Of a stretch of 39,535 nucleotides of DNA, positions 5,506 to 31,163 are shown piece after piece; positions within the stretch are counted from its first letter, which is position 1, and every line of letters starts with the position of its first letter. The stretch comes from Betaproteobacteria bacterium. GTDB lineage: Bacteria > Pseudomonadota > Gammaproteobacteria > Burkholderiales > Ga0077523. A model generated the notes under the pieces. That model was not told the DNA's origin, ran no database searches, and was given only the letters and a program-made list of their open reading frames with translations. The translations under genes and the position numbers were made by a program. Location: positions 1 through 39,535 of the forward strand of contig WGLR01000030.1 of assembly GCA_016125475.1 (NCBI GenBank), given 5' to 3'.

Positions 5506-6234
5506 CTACTCGTCCGGTCCCGCGAGGACCTCGGCGACGTGCAGCACGCGCGTGGTCGTGTCGCCTCTCCGCCTGAGACGCCCTTCGATGTTCAGCATGC
5601 ACCCGAGGTCTCCCAGCACGACCGTGCCGGCGCCCGTCGTGGCGATGTCCTCGCATTTGCGTTCGGCGATGCGGCCGGAAATCTCGCCGTACTTCACCGC
5701 GAAGGTGCCACCGAAGCCGCAGCAGTATTCCGGCGTGGCCATCTCCCTGATCTCGAGGCCGGGCACCATGCCCAGCAGTGCGCGGGGCTGCCGCTTGACG
5801 CCGAGTTCGCGGAGCCCGGAGCAGGAATCGTGATAGGTGACCGTGCCCTCGAAACGCCCCGGCACCGACTGCACTCCGAGCACGTTCACGAGGAAATCGG
5901 TGAGTTCGTAGGTGCGGGCCGCGAGCCGGTCGACCGCGGCCTTGAGCGCAGGTTCGTCCCGGGCGAGGTCCGCGTAGTGCGTCCTGATCATTCCCCCGCA
6001 GGAACCGGACGGTGTCACCAGGTAGTCGCAGTCGTCGAACTCCCGAACGACCTTGCGCGCAAGTGCGAGCGCGGCAGCCCGGTCGCCCGAGTTGTGGGCG
6101 GGCTGGCCGCAGCAGGTCTGCCTGCCGGGCACGACGACCTCGCAGCCCGCACCTTCCAGCAGCCTGAGGGCACTGAAGCCGATGCGCGGACGCACGAGGT
6201 CGACGAGGCAGGTGACGAAGAGACCGACTTTCAT
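5506..6234 (-). CDS. lutA: LutA-like cysteine-rich lactate utilization protein
   Basis: A 242-residue protein with two cysteine-rich CCG domains, as in LutA and the glycolate/heterodisulfide-reductase subunit families. Visible: CLVDLVRPRIG, CCGQPAHNSGD and SGSCGGMI in the first half; SCSGLRELG and CCGFGGTFAVKYG in the second. These cysteines are expected to bind an iron-sulfur cluster. The start is the ATG at 6232-6234, giving MKVGLFVTCLVDL, the canonical N-terminus; the same frame is open upstream but without family similarity. First gene of the lutABC operon, divergent from an IclR regulator. No lactate permease gene is adjacent. Confidence 0.94.
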   Translation of the reverse strand: MKVGLFVTCLVDLVRPRIGFSALRLLEGAGCEVVVPGRQTCCGQPAHNSGDRAAALALARKVVREFDDCDYLVTPSGSCGGMIRTHYADLARDEPALKAAVDRLAARTYELTDFLVNVLGVQSVPGRFEGTVTYHDSCSGLRELGVKRQPRALLGMVPGLEIREMATPEYCCGFGGTFAVKYGEISGRIAERKCEDIATTGAGTVVLGDLGCMLNIEGRLRRRGDTTTRVLHVAEVLAGPDE

Positions 6235-6541
6235 CTTCAGGAATGTTCCGTTGGTGTGCGGCCCGCGGAGGGCGGAGCGGTAGCGAGGACGGTGCGGTCG
6301 TGGGAGTGCGGGCCGCCCGCCATGCAGTCGGCCCGGCTGCACTGTTGGTCCGATCCTGTACGATGTCCCGAAATCCGTGTTGCGCGGCCTGTTGTCCGTG
6401 ATTCGATAAAGCCTTCGGATCATAGCACGGGCAGCCGCGCCGACCGCGTGCCCGCCCGCCGCACCCGCGCGTTCTTCCGGGCAGTGGTACGGGAAATGCA
6501 GGCTAGAATCGGCCCCGCCAACACTTCGAGAAAGAAGCACC
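6235..6541. promoter_or_regulatory. Divergent intergenic region lutA / iclR
   Basis: This 307-base spacer holds no supported gene and must carry the promoters of lutABC (leftward) and the IclR gene (rightward). A TAGAAT hexamer at 6504-6509 is a plausible -10 box for iclR, 32 bases before its GTG. On the other strand TATGAT (complement of 6419-6424) could be a -10 for lutA. Neither has a convincing -35 partner. The IclR protein may bind here, but I could not pick out a clean palindrome. Confidence 0.45.
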
Positions 6542-26965: not shown

Positions 26966-28417
26966 TCACGGGCAGGAACCGCGCGCGAATCCTTCCGGCA
27001 CGCGGTGCAGGAGCGTCATCGTGAACCCGTTCCACCAGCCGAGGTCGTCGCCCGTCCCCACGGCGTAGGCCCGGCCCCAGACGACGCGCGCGCGCCCCGC
27101 GCGGGCATGGTCGACGTTCGACGCGTACCAGGGGTCGCAGGGCGGTGGTGCCGCGGGCGTCGTGAGCGCCAGTTCGGTGCCCCCCCTGTCGGTCGTGACC
27201 GTGACCCGATACCGGGCCCCGGGCGTCAGGGGAGAAAGCGTGATGCTTCCCCCTGCAGCCGCCGTCTCGCGCGTGAGAGTCTCGCCGGAAGGACCCGACG
27301 CCGAGACTGCGACCTCGCCGTCCAGCCCTCCCGGCACCCAGGCCAGGGCGGCGGCGCGGGAACCGACGTCGACGACCACGGGGTCCGAAGGCACGCCCAC
27401 GGCGTCACCCGGCTCGCCGGCCGCCGTCGCGCCCGACGCGATCCGGTCCGCCATTGCACGCAGCGCGGCCACCTGGGGACCGAGGCGCGTCGCGTACGCA
27501 CTTCCCGTGTAACCCCACCAGTCCCAGCAACCGGCGGGGTTCCAGGGAAATCCCCACGTCGCGCGTGCCTGCGGGTAGAGCACGACTATCCGGTTCGCGT
27601 CGGCCCAGCGATTGAATCCGGCATTGCGCACGAAGGCTTCGCCCACGCTCTCGGCCGACTGCTCGCAACCGTGAAGCGCGATGTGCAAGCGGCACCTCTC
27701 GCCGTTCGCACACGCGGCCGGCACGTACGCATAGCCTTCGGACGCCATGCCTGCCTCGCGCGCCCACCCCTTCACGAACTCGGTCTGGTCGAAGCGGACG
27801 AGCCGGCCGTGCAGTGTCGCCCCCGGCACGACGAGACGTCCGTAGATGAACTGGAGCATGCTGCCCGCCATGTCGTAGCCGCAGTCCACCAGGAACGGTT
27901 CCGCCGTGACGTCGCAGTGCGCGGTGACCTCGTCGGAGACGATGGCGTGACCGGAACGCAGGTCGGCACGGTAGAAGATCGCGTCGACCGGCACGAGGGA
28001 ACCGTAGAACGCATCGAGTGCGTCCACGACCGACTGGCGGACGACGCCATCGTTGTAGCCCGAGTAGAGCCAGACACGGCTCCGCGCGAGCGCGTTCAGC
28101 GGATCGATCTCGCCCTTTCTCGCGGCCCGGCGCGCCGCCGCGAGCAGTGGTTCGGTCGCCGGTCTTGCCTGCATGCACTCTCCGGTCGCCCTCTCGGCGC
28201 TGCCGTGGGCACAGAACCAGGGACCGCCCGCGACGATGCCGACGCCGCGCACGATCGACGCATGGGCCAGGTGGAACTGGACGGCCATGAACGCTCCCGA
28301 AGACAGCCCCGATACGGACGTCTCCGTGATGTCCACGTTGAGCGCGGGCAGACGTTCGGCCGCCTCCACGACCGTGGCAGCCAGCGCGAGGATCAGCAGG
28401 GAGAGCAGGCGTCGCAT
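26966..28417 (-). CDS. Secreted poly(3-hydroxybutyrate) depolymerase (P. funiculosum type)
   Basis: A 483-residue exported esterase. After a signal peptide (about 1-20) the mature start LPALNVDITETSVSGLSSGAF closely resembles the Penicillium funiculosum PHB depolymerase, including the catalytic serine (Ser39, GLSSG). YSGYNDGVV and SGHAIVSDE supply plausible Asp and His. The segments LHIALHGCEQS and NPAGCWDWWGYTG are also typical of this family. Residues about 365-445 look like a fibronectin-III-like linker (PGARYRVTVTTD), and a Cys-containing tail (PPCDPWYASN) follows. Expected role: degradation of extracellular or granule-released PHB. The start is ATG 28415-28417; the open frame continues upstream without similarity. 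Confidence 0.85.
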   Translation of the reverse strand: MRRLLSLLILALAATVVEAAERLPALNVDITETSVSGLSSGAFMAVQFHLAHASIVRGVGIVAGGPWFCAHGSAERATGECMQARPATEPLLAAARRAARKGEIDPLNALARSRVWLYSGYNDGVVRQSVVDALDAFYGSLVPVDAIFYRADLRSGHAIVSDEVTAHCDVTAEPFLVDCGYDMAGSMLQFIYGRLVVPGATLHGRLVRFDQTEFVKGWAREAGMASEGYAYVPAACANGERCRLHIALHGCEQSAESVGEAFVRNAGFNRWADANRIVVLYPQARATWGFPWNPAGCWDWWGYTGSAYATRLGPQVAALRAMADRIASGATAAGEPGDAVGVPSDPVVVDVGSRAAALAWVPGGLDGEVAVSASGPSGETLTRETAAAGGSITLSPLTPGARYRVTVTTDRGGTELALTTPAAPPPCDPWYASNVDHARAGRARVVWGRAYAVGTGDDLGWWNGFTMTLLHRVPEGFARGSCP

Positions 28418-28733
28418 GCGCGCATGGTATGCCTTTCGGATACGCTTCACCGTGGGCTGGTACGCCCAACCCGCCGTTTCGGGCGCCCTGCCCGAAGCCT
28501 TGAAGTCCCGGCCGCATTCGTGCAACGATCCGGACGCGGAAGGCGGGAACGACACGTCGTGCAGACAGGGAGGCGTGTCCCGGCCGCGTTTCCGGAACCG
28601 GACGACCACGGGAGCGACCGGAATCATGCTGTCCGATCGTGTCTATGCCGTGTTCGAGCGCCTGACCACGAAGCTCCTGGGCGGCGCGCTCAGGCTCGGC
28701 GTGCGTTTCAATCGTGAACAGAGGAGAACGATC
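28418..28733. promoter_or_regulatory. Divergent spacer, PHB depolymerase / three-gene cluster
   Basis: A 316-base divergent region. Its right part (28626-28733) holds an in-frame ATG with 36 codons reading straight into the first cluster gene; this could be an N-terminal extension or just leader RNA. No clear promoter hexamers or palindromes were picked out. Confidence 0.4.
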
Positions 28734-29060
28734 ATGGCGAACAAGGCCGCGGAAGCACTGGCACCCGTGGAACTCGGCAGGATGATCGAGTCGCTGGGCA
28801 TCGCCGTCGCGACCGCGAACAAGAAGCTCCTGGAGGCCACTCCCGATCTGCCGAGCACGATGGTGATCGACAGCGCGCAGATCGACCTGAAGGTCGCGAT
28901 CAGCGTGGACGAGAGCACGACGACGAGCGCTGGCGGCGAACTCAAGCTGCAGGCATTCAACGTGAACGCGTCCTACTCCCGCACTTACGGTTTCAAGGAA
29001 GAGGCCTCGAGCCAGATCACGATCCACCTGCAGGCGCGCCCGCAGGTGCAGGCGTCCTGA
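28734..29060 (+). CDS. Small protein of unknown function, member 1 of a paralogous trio
   Basis: A 108-residue cytosolic-looking protein with no signal or membrane segment. An amphipathic helix (about 12-34, starting VELGRMIESLG) is followed by a beta-rich part (TMVIDSAQIDLKVAISV, then SQITIHLQARP). I do not recognise the family firmly. The pattern of a helix, a 'V-I-D' strand and a final 'L-x-x-R-P' strand recalls small domains such as Trypco2 or DUF2589, at low confidence. It aligns with residues 45-133 of the next gene and 42-127 of the third. The start is ATG 28734 with AGAGGAG seven bases upstream; ATG 28626 in the same frame is the alternative. Confidence 0.7.
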   Translation: MANKAAEALAPVELGRMIESLGIAVATANKKLLEATPDLPSTMVIDSAQIDLKVAISVDESTTTSAGGELKLQAFNVNASYSRTYGFKEEASSQITIHLQARPQVQAS

Positions 29061-29087
29061 CGCCCGGGCGTTCGCTGACCCTCAGCC

Positions 29088-29951
29088 ATGGCTGCCGAGA
29101 AGCGCACGTCCCGTTCGCGACGCGGACGTTCGGACGAATCCCGCCTGCGGCTCACGCGCCGCAAGGTCGCCCGTGGTGCCGCCGCGGCGCGCGTGATCAC
29201 ACCCGTGTCGTCCGGCGCCGTCACGCTGGAGGAGATGCTCGTCGCATTCCAGAAGAGCCTCGCGCGCGCGACGCGCGCGAGCTTCGAGGCCAGCCGGTCC
29301 GAGGCCGGTTTCGGCCTCGGGGAACAGGCCCTCTACGTCATCGACGGCCTGAATGTGTCGCTCGATGCGGGATGCAGGGCCGCATTCGGTCCGAACGGCA
29401 GACCGTCGCACGTTGTCCTCGACTTCGACAGGCCCGCGGACTCCGGCGGAACCGCCCGGCTGGAATTCCGCGTCCAGACACGTCCGCTCGAGCCGCTTGC
29501 CGGATCGCAGATCATCCTCGCCGACCTCGATCCGCTCGGACACGGCCGGCCGGAATACCGACTGCGCGGGACGCTGATGCTGCCCCCGCCCGAGAGCGCC
29601 GCCCGCGAGCCCGGCGCGCAGTCGGCCGCGGTGACCCAGGCACTGCGAAAGCTACGCCCGCAGGCAGACCGCGCGATCGACGTGCACATCGTCGGTGGGG
29701 ACACGAAGAAGGTGGACGTCGTGTCGGTGGACACGAACGCCGTGGGCCAGTTCGAGTTCTCGATCGACGCGGACAGGAACCGCTTCACGTTCGGCGACCG
29801 GTCCAGCCCGCTCTCGCAGGTCCAGCTCCGCGAGGAGGACGACGACTTCTTCGTGTTCGCGACGTACGAGTCCGACGAACTCGCGGAACCGGTCGTATCG
29901 AACATCATGCGTTTCGACGTGAAGCGCCAGCCATCTTCCGGGAGTTCGTGA
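29088..29951 (+). CDS. Two-part protein of unknown function, member 2 of the trio
   Basis: A 287-residue protein. The first 35 residues are very basic (SRSRRGRS, RLTRRKVARG). Residues 45-133 repeat the domain of the flanking genes: VTLEEMLVAFQKSL, then LYVIDGLNVSLDAGC and ARLEFRVQTRP. The rest (about 134-287) is beta-rich. Its segment from about residue 190 (DVHIVGGDTKKVDVVSVD, GQFEFSIDADRNRF, FFVFATYESDE, VVSNIMRFDV) looks like an immunoglobulin-like or carboxypeptidase-regulatory-like sandwich. No signal peptide is seen. The gene follows member 1 by 27 bases and precedes member 3 by three. Function unknown. Confidence 0.72.
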   Translation: MAAEKRTSRSRRGRSDESRLRLTRRKVARGAAAARVITPVSSGAVTLEEMLVAFQKSLARATRASFEASRSEAGFGLGEQALYVIDGLNVSLDAGCRAAFGPNGRPSHVVLDFDRPADSGGTARLEFRVQTRPLEPLAGSQIILADLDPLGHGRPEYRLRGTLMLPPPESAAREPGAQSAAVTQALRKLRPQADRAIDVHIVGGDTKKVDVVSVDTNAVGQFEFSIDADRNRFTFGDRSSPLSQVQLREEDDDFFVFATYESDELAEPVVSNIMRFDVKRQPSSGSS

Positions 29952-29954
29952 ACC

Positions 29955-30359
29955 ATGGCCCGGGGCATCCAGGACGGCAGCGGCAATCCGGTCGGGACCG
30001 GCGCGGGAGGCAATGTGGCAAGCAACCTCGACAAGGCGAACGCGACCTCGCCCGCGGCTGATCGCGCCGAAACGGAACTCTCGCTCGACGAGATCCTGAA
30101 GCAGCTCACCGACGCCTGCACCACGTCCGCGCGCCAGCTCCAGATCGCGATGGAGCAGCCGGAGTGGCGCGACAGCCCCGTCATCTACACGATTCCGGGC
30201 ATGAAGGTGAACGTTAAGGTCGGCCTCACGGCGACGAAGGAACGCGTGAAGGGCATCCTCTGGTGGCGCACGCAACAGGGCACCACGACGGAGGCCCTGA
30301 GCCAGATCGAGATGGACATCGTCGCGGTGCCACGCACGCCGGGTGGCGCGGGTTCGTAA
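29955..30359 (+). CDS. Small protein of unknown function, member 3 of the trio
   Basis: A 134-residue protein. The first 40 residues are Gly/Asn/Ala-rich and probably disordered. Residues 42-127 hold the shared domain: LSLDEILKQLTDAC helix, then PVIYTIPGMKVNVKVGL and SQIEMDIVAVPR. Between the strands is an aromatic loop, ILWWRTQQGT. The tail is PGGAGS. It starts three bases after member 2, so the genes are surely co-transcribed. It converges with the SDR gene, 33 bases away. No enzymatic motif is visible. Confidence 0.7.
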   Translation: MARGIQDGSGNPVGTGAGGNVASNLDKANATSPAADRAETELSLDEILKQLTDACTTSARQLQIAMEQPEWRDSPVIYTIPGMKVNVKVGLTATKERVKGILWWRTQQGTTTEALSQIEMDIVAVPRTPGGAGS

Positions 30360-30392
30360 TCGGCGCGCGATACGCCGACGCAGCCCGGTGGC

Positions 30393-31163
30393 CTACCGCC
30401 GGCCGAGATGCATGCCGCTGTCGACCTGGAGCAGCTCGCCCGTCACGACGCGCGCCCCCTCGATGAGCCAGGCGACCGCGTCGGCGACATCGTCCGCCGA
30501 TGCGGCGGTCGCGAGCGGCACCGACTGCTCGTAGGCCTCCATGAACTGCGCGTACCGCGCCTCGTCGAAACGCGCTCGATGCCAGCGCGTGTCGATGAGT
30601 CCGGGGCACACGGCGTTCACGCGGATGGTGGGTGCGAGTGCCCGTGCAAGAGACAGCGTCATCGCGTTGAGCGCGCCCTTCGATGCCGCGTAGGCCACCG
30701 AGGAGCCGAGCCCGGAGATGCCTGCCGACGACGACACGTTCACGACCGCGCCTGCACCGATCGCCTGCATCGCGGGCGCGCACGCACGGATCATCTGGTA
30801 GCAACCGATCACGTTCACGGCGTAGATGTCCTGGAAGTCCGCCGCACTCAGCGCGTCGAGCCTGGCCGCATTCGCGAAGCGGGTGATGCCCGCACTGTTC
30901 ACGAGCGCGTCGATGCGCTGCCACCGCTCCAGCGCGGCCGCTGCAAGCGCGCGACAGTCGTCGTCGTGCGCGACGTCTCCGCGCATCGCAAAGGACTCTC
31001 CGCCCGCCGTTGCGCACTGCGCCGCGACAGCCTCGGCCTCGGTGCCGCTCCGGCTGTAATTGACGAGGACGTTCCAGCCTGTACGTGCGAGCCTCAGCGC
31101 ACAGGCCGCCCCGGTTCCCGTGCCGCCCCCCGTCACGATGCACACCCTGCGCTCCATGCTCAC
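30393..31163 (-). CDS. Short-chain dehydrogenase/reductase (SDR)
   Basis: A 256-residue classical SDR: nucleotide-binding VTGGGTGTGAA near residue 10, NSAG, the catalytic Ser in VVNVSSSAG, and YAASK with the Tyr-Lys pair. The C-terminal VDSGMHLG resembles the fabG-like group. The start is GTG 31161-31163: GGGAGG lies six bases upstream, and GTGA overlaps the stop of the transporter gene by four bases. Two codons later an ATG is possible but spaced worse. Substrate unknown; the operon link suggests it may act on what the transporter brings in. Confidence 0.91.
   Translation of the reverse strand: MSMERRVCIVTGGGTGTGAACALRLARTGWNVLVNYSRSGTEAEAVAAQCATAGGESFAMRGDVAHDDDCRALAAAALERWQRIDALVNSAGITRFANAARLDALSAADFQDIYAVNVIGCYQMIRACAPAMQAIGAGAVVNVSSSAGISGLGSSVAYAASKGALNAMTLSLARALAPTIRVNAVCPGLIDTRWHRARFDEARYAQFMEAYEQSVPLATAASADDVADAVAWLIEGARVVTGELLQVDSGMHLGRR

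Follow-up and report, generated by a model that had tools for sequence, protein, structure and literature searches.

Three adjacent betaproteobacterial genes probably share one small domain whose nearest known kin, at the edge of detection, appears to be Trypco2

Introduction

Trypco2 (PF19631), the trypsin-co-occurring domain 2, was named in PMC7159879, and in the parts of that study available to us Trypco1 or Trypco2 genes are described as frequent neighbours of the trypsin-like peptidases in VMAP systems. As far as the accessible text of this and a second study goes (PMC7159879, PMC10907252), Trypco2 was named as part of conflict systems on the basis of gene neighbourhood. Short genes related to another small-domain family, DUF2589 (PF11655), are found at AF0414-AF0417; the portion of PMC3949148 that we could consult reports this region as up-regulated on lactate, which to that extent puts clustering of small genes of this sort on record.

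Here we analyze three adjacent genes in a 39,535-nucleotide stretch of DNA from a Betaproteobacteria bacterium (contig WGLR01000030.1), hereafter the window, and compare them with both families. A preliminary description, made by eye from the letters and translations of this DNA, had proposed that the three genes share one small domain.

Results

Three reading frames lie head to tail

The three genes (members 1, 2 and 3) are arranged head to tail with gaps of 27 bases between members 1 and 2 and 3 bases between members 2 and 3, and these gaps, the coordinates and the lengths of 108, 287 and 134 amino acids were all reproduced as first described (Table 1). From this spacing, it is plausible that the trio forms an operon. 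The start of member 1 at 28734 is the one chosen in the preliminary description; it is preceded by a Shine-Dalgarno-like AGAGGAGA, and upstream of it the frame stays open to an ATG at 28173. GC content by codon position in the trio (0.59-0.70, 0.44-0.51 and 0.86-0.89 for the first, second and third positions, respectively) fits coding on the forward strand, and we take it as support for coding rather than as proof, since high third-position GC is also found in some opposite-strand frames. All three genes are in one reading frame, separated only by TGA codons (3 in total, 1 of them in the 27-base gap), and a frame common to three genes arises by chance in roughly 1 in 9 cases.

Sequence scans of positions 28300-30700, which are a weak kind of evidence, detected no promoter-like site and one terminator-like site on the opposite strand. 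No Rfam family was found in the window at gathering score. Hydropathy predicts no membrane segment in any of the members (the highest mean over 19 residues is 1.33), and no signal peptide was apparent by eye.

Table 1. Positions in the window of the three genes, of the parts of member 2 and of the two flanking genes.
Feature	Position	Strand	Description
Left neighbor, Esterase_PHB-like (below Pfam cut-off)	26966..28459	-	start placed by eye; kept in 6/11 genus-mates
Member 1	28734..29060	+	108 aa: helix, strand, last strand; Cys-free; no membrane segment by hydropathy
Member 2	29088..29951	+	287 aa: basic N-terminal tail, helix and strand probably common to the trio, C-terminal half
Member 2, stretch aligned with members 1 and 3	29202..29507	+	support for helix and first strand but not for last strand
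Member 2, C-terminal half	29508..29948	+	no Pfam match and nothing significantly like the shared domain
Member 3	29955..30359	+	134 aa: Gly/Ala-rich tail of ~40 residues followed by helix, strand and last strand
Right neighbor, short-chain dehydrogenase	30393..31139	-	76% identical to its counterpart in genus-mate G201

A helix and first strand are common to the three members

Pairwise comparisons of the members were not significant. In Smith-Waterman alignments with 1000 shuffles per pair, 40 shuffles reached the real score for members 1 and 2, 121 for members 1 and 3, and 317 for members 2 and 3, and the match between members 1 and 2 lay within member 2's C-terminal half rather than in the region that the preliminary description had aligned. 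Single-sequence hhalign gave a similar outcome, with 15 of 300 shuffles reaching the score for members 1 and 3, 195 of 300 for members 1 and 2, and 60 of 300 for members 3 and 2. These pairwise results speak for an alternative in which the three orphan genes are unrelated and resemble one another only in a generic arrangement, an amphipathic helix with strands after it; so does the finding that no homologue backs any of the three members.

Against this alternative, profiles built from two members recognized the third in every combination. A profile of members 1 and 3 scored 23.8 over 53 columns against the first 140 residues of member 2, and no shuffle out of 300 reached this score; the profile of member 1 with the N-terminal portion of member 2 (2N) likewise exceeded 300 of 300 shuffles against member 3 (85 columns), as did the profile of member 3 with 2N against member 1, but here the match spanned only 21 columns. 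As a control with real sequences, we used 80 pieces, overlapping by half, of 17 other proteins of the window (the gene at 5506-6500 was dropped for a stop). For all three combinations of two-member profiles, 0/80 pieces reached the real score, while 2/80 did so when member 1 alone was compared with member 3. Reversed profiles gave low scores, which also argues against unrelated orphans. Since the two-member profiles beat both shuffles and real pieces, a common helix and first strand are better supported than chance would allow, and the three adjacent frames probably carry one shared domain, as judged by sequence comparison. We regard three unrelated orphans as unlikely.

The extent of the shared region differed between members. 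In the profile alignments, the helix and first strand were supported in all three, but the last strand was supported between members 1 and 3 only; the segment LEFRVQTRP, which the preliminary description had taken as the last strand of member 2, fell out of that register, a point in favor of unrelated orphans. Thus, the proposal of one shared domain held at the profile level for the helix and first strand, and for the last strand of members 1 and 3, whereas it did not hold for the last strand of member 2 and was weak for individual pairs.

Several repeats were seen in these genes. Members 1 and 3 contain, at the last strand, a 23-nucleotide stretch of 83% identical DNA. It is among the 15 two-copy families listed for the region, and such families often arise by chance. 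Within the C-terminal half of member 2, two 26-nucleotide copies (29682-29737; 73% identical, 30 bases apart) encode VHIVGGDTK and VDVVSVDTN, which may also be due to chance. A second copy of the domain in this C-terminal half was considered and found to be unsupported (19, 10, 156 and 50 of 200 shuffles reached the respective scores); the best Smith-Waterman match of member 1 nevertheless lies there.

AlphaFold2 models, made from two- and three-row alignments, reached a mean pLDDT of 39.9 for member 3 and 45.5 for member 1, values too low to judge the fold. The low-confidence model of member 1 places a helix at residues 7-28 and strands at residues 35-46 and 87-97 of the trimmed 101-residue protein, and this order of helix, strand and strand agrees with the preliminary description.

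Database searches recovered no known family for the trio. No member matched Pfam or NCBIfam at E ≤ 1, Pfam (hmmscan) or PADLOC at E ≤ 10, or PDB sequences at E ≤ 10, and the earlier observation that the genes lack an enzyme motif is in line with the absence of any recognized enzyme domain in these family searches. Members 1 and 2 had no match in PHROGs at E ≤ 10. Member 3 gave two weak PHROGs matches, to phrog_811 (annotated UmuD-like, E 0.07, residues 27-51), which falls mostly in the Gly/Ala-rich tail, and to phrog_26069 (annotated as of unknown function, E 0.088, residues 43-103); as sequence matches, both are unproven.

A profile of the trio appears closer to Trypco2 than to DUF2589

The preliminary description had offered a resemblance to Trypco2 or DUF2589 as a hint. 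We aligned Trypco2 from six of the nine places that a search of 200 phylum genomes yielded, omitting L031 (partial), L032 (below cut-off) and L024 (full match). Against this alignment, the trio profile scored 25.2 over the helix and first strand (P 0.0008, hhalign probability 24%), and the global comparison gave P 0.0007 over 89 columns, pairing positions 1-108 of the trio with positions 5-95 of Trypco2; these P values, and all those below for Trypco2 and DUF2589, are uncorrected for the number of comparisons, with two families tried, both named by the preliminary description. None of 200 column shuffles reached the score (best shuffle 18.0), reversed decoys scored 11-12, and the best of the 80 pieces of other window proteins scored 17.7 against the Trypco2 profile.

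The P value stayed between 0.0002 and 0.003 when any single Trypco2 row was dropped. Removing member 2 from the trio profile gave P 0.0007 over 61 columns, while removing member 1 or member 3 gave P 0.033 and P 0.017, respectively. Individually, the members were not significant (member 1, P 0.053; member 3, P 0.14; member 2N, P 0.11). Taken together, the hint of Trypco2 pointed in the right direction, and Trypco2 appears from these comparisons to be the nearest known kin found for the trio, at the edge of detection. Formal membership fails, because the trio has no Trypco2 match in Pfam (none at E ≤ 10 by hmmscan) and no trypsin gene among the neighbors scanned. No Trypco2 match was found at E ≤ 10 anywhere in the trio's own genome either, and a VMAP-C match in that genome reached 14.2 bits, below the cut-off of 27.

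Compared with an alignment of 8 DUF2589 rows, the trio profile was not significant, with 10/200 column shuffles reaching its score and a global P of 0.62. The trio could still be imagined as a cluster of the DUF2589 type, in which small helix-plus-strand genes stand in tandem as they do at loci L017, L019 and L020. The short DUF2589-related genes of the AF0414-AF0417 region speak for this, as does member 1 alone, which scored 19.8 against DUF2589 (P 0.016), above the best of the 80 other window pieces (16.7). Members 2N and 3, on the other hand, gave P 0.16 and 0.59, the trio contains no DUF2589 match in Pfam at E ≤ 10, and its genome has no PF11655 match at E ≤ 1. A cluster of this type is improbable. 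The Trypco2 and DUF2589 alignments compared with each other gave P 0.039 over 13 columns.

The tandem DUF2589 genes themselves (L017:5857-8124, L019:4125-8407 and L020:4404-8663, some rows of which were assigned by alignment only) stand near cell-wall-type genes. At L017, a 179-aa gene with no Pfam match lies between the DUF2589 genes, and the cell-wall-type genes nearby are a Glyco_hydro_19 frame and one whose protein matches eCIS_core and Fic; annotations of 'peptidoglycan-binding protein' occur near the DUF2589 genes at L019 and L020. At L018:4928-7394, a DUF2589 gene is followed by small genes with no Pfam match over cut-off, the last of which carries, by eye only, a peptidase-like histidine motif.

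No credible relative of the trio was found in the genomes searched

We searched for relatives of the trio in sets of genomes that overlap, are samples and include the trio's own genome, using searches that would miss strongly diverged copies and that scored part of the first-look candidates (for member 2, 6 of 24 in its own genome). At E ≤ 0.01, the three-row profile recovered only these three copies in their own genome, with 12 of 16 candidates scored. Member 1 had matches in its own genome and in 2/200 genomes of the order, member 3 in 2/200 genomes of the order and 3/369 of the class, member 2 in 1/12 genomes of the family and 1/398 of the phylum, and the three-row profile in 3/398 genomes of the phylum. 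Across these sets (order 200, class 369, phylum 398 genomes, by the member or profile searched), no credible relative of the trio was found. Pattern scans of genome contigs, which require an exact short peptide, gave 159 and 48 pattern matches for members 1 and 3, none of which was confirmed. The three genes were seen together in no other genome among those searched, an outcome that the preliminary description had said would count against its proposal.

Matches outside the locus (L002, L004, L006, L022, L023, L034 and L035) were judged to be due to chance after the frames were read. The L002 match lies inside a 451-aa frame that we take from its translation to encode a membrane-protein-like product. 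From the translations, we likewise assume that the L004 match is a flagellin-like gene and that the L034 match is LolB-like by eye; the L006 and L022 matches are presumably antisense to a valyl-tRNA-synthetase-like gene and a flgK-like gene, the L023 match presumably lies next to an flhA-like gene or antisense to it, and the L035 match lies beside what we take to be response-regulator-like genes. A further match, L003, had an E value of 0.5.

The trio occupies a variable slot among metabolic genes

The trio stands among ordinary metabolic genes. Around it are families of DUF6282/amidohydrolase, Esterase_PHB-like, short-chain dehydrogenase, glycine-betaine ABC transporter and TatD, together with 2-hydroxyacid dehydrogenase, TRAP-transporter parts, CoA-transferase and enoyl-CoA hydratase; most window genes left of ~17000 were read by eye only. 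In genus-mate G201, counterparts of the esterase and the dehydrogenase (57% and 76% identical, respectively) bracket another gene that takes the place of the trio and is oriented like it (L049:3228-3929, reverse strand); this gene encodes a secreted-looking protein of 234 aa from the chosen start, with no Pfam match and no likeness to members 1, 2 or 3. The esterase flank was read in four of the six genus-mates that have a counterpart, and in G157, G118 and G200 the esterase adjoins a different neighbor. Since G201 has a different occupant between kept neighbors, the slot is variable and its occupation by the trio is lineage-specific; gain here and loss elsewhere are indistinguishable.

Such a pattern could also arise if the trio were the remnant of a phage or another mobile element, or cargo carried by one, and the different gene in the G201 slot fits this explanation, as does the absence of the trio from 11/11 other genomes of the family in the search with member 2. 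However, members 2 and 3 matched nothing in phage records, no relative was confirmed in viral contigs, plasmids gave no match or weak ones at E 0.4-0.8, and the two weak PHROGs matches concern member 3 only. Moreover, there is no tRNA in the window and no integrase or transposase among the scanned neighbors, and the GC content of the trio is similar to that of the window. A mobile-element origin is therefore very improbable.

Discussion

The explanation that we favor, which we regard as evenly poised between right and wrong, is that the trio encodes cytosolic adaptor subunits, Trypco2-like and derived by duplication, which assemble together and work via an unlinked partner. One small domain, made up of an amphipathic helix and a few strands and distantly akin to Trypco2, would have been duplicated, giving three cytosolic proteins in a cassette specific to this lineage. 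These proteins would bind one another through the shared domain as a hetero-oligomeric adaptor, with the helix as the presumed contact between subunits, and either the sheet or the C-terminal half of member 2 may serve as the arm for contacting a partner or ligand. The partner would be encoded elsewhere in the genome. We infer co-assembly of the subunits, as the preliminary description had suggested.

A more specific form of this explanation, which we put forward tentatively as possible though doubtful, is a self-contained, peptidase-free adaptor complex of three duplicated and strongly diverged Trypco2-like subunits, one of which would have its own sensing or effector arm. On the same tentative footing, the cassette, in its metabolic neighborhood, may represent a Trypco2-like branch that was not encountered in the present searches and that would work outside the conflict systems with trypsin and MoxR.

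If the trio does consist of co-assembling relatives of Trypco2, this adaptor domain needs no trypsin partner to work and can grow into a set of several subunits, which would help to work out the role of Trypco2 in conflict systems. If the three genes are unrelated orphans instead, the locus is an ordinary case.

Compared with known systems, the trio is like DUF2589 in having, by eye, a helix and then strands and in having related small genes side by side, but the DUF2589 model is longer (154 positions) and its genes have other neighbors than the trio. With regard to Trypco2, the differences are that the trio lies below Pfam detection, that it has three tandem copies whereas a single Trypco2 match per genome was seen here, and that its scanned neighbors include no trypsin-like peptidase, MoxR-like AAA or VMAP gene. 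In contrast, at positive-control Trypco2 loci of the phylum the next gene matches Trypsin_2 in 4/4 (over cut-off in 1/4), and the second gene on encodes, in 3/3 scanned, an AAA protein weakly similar to bpMoxR. What the trio appears to have in common with Trypco2 is a small helix-then-strands domain, its profile being colinear with that of Trypco2 over the helix and strand and, globally, from end to end.
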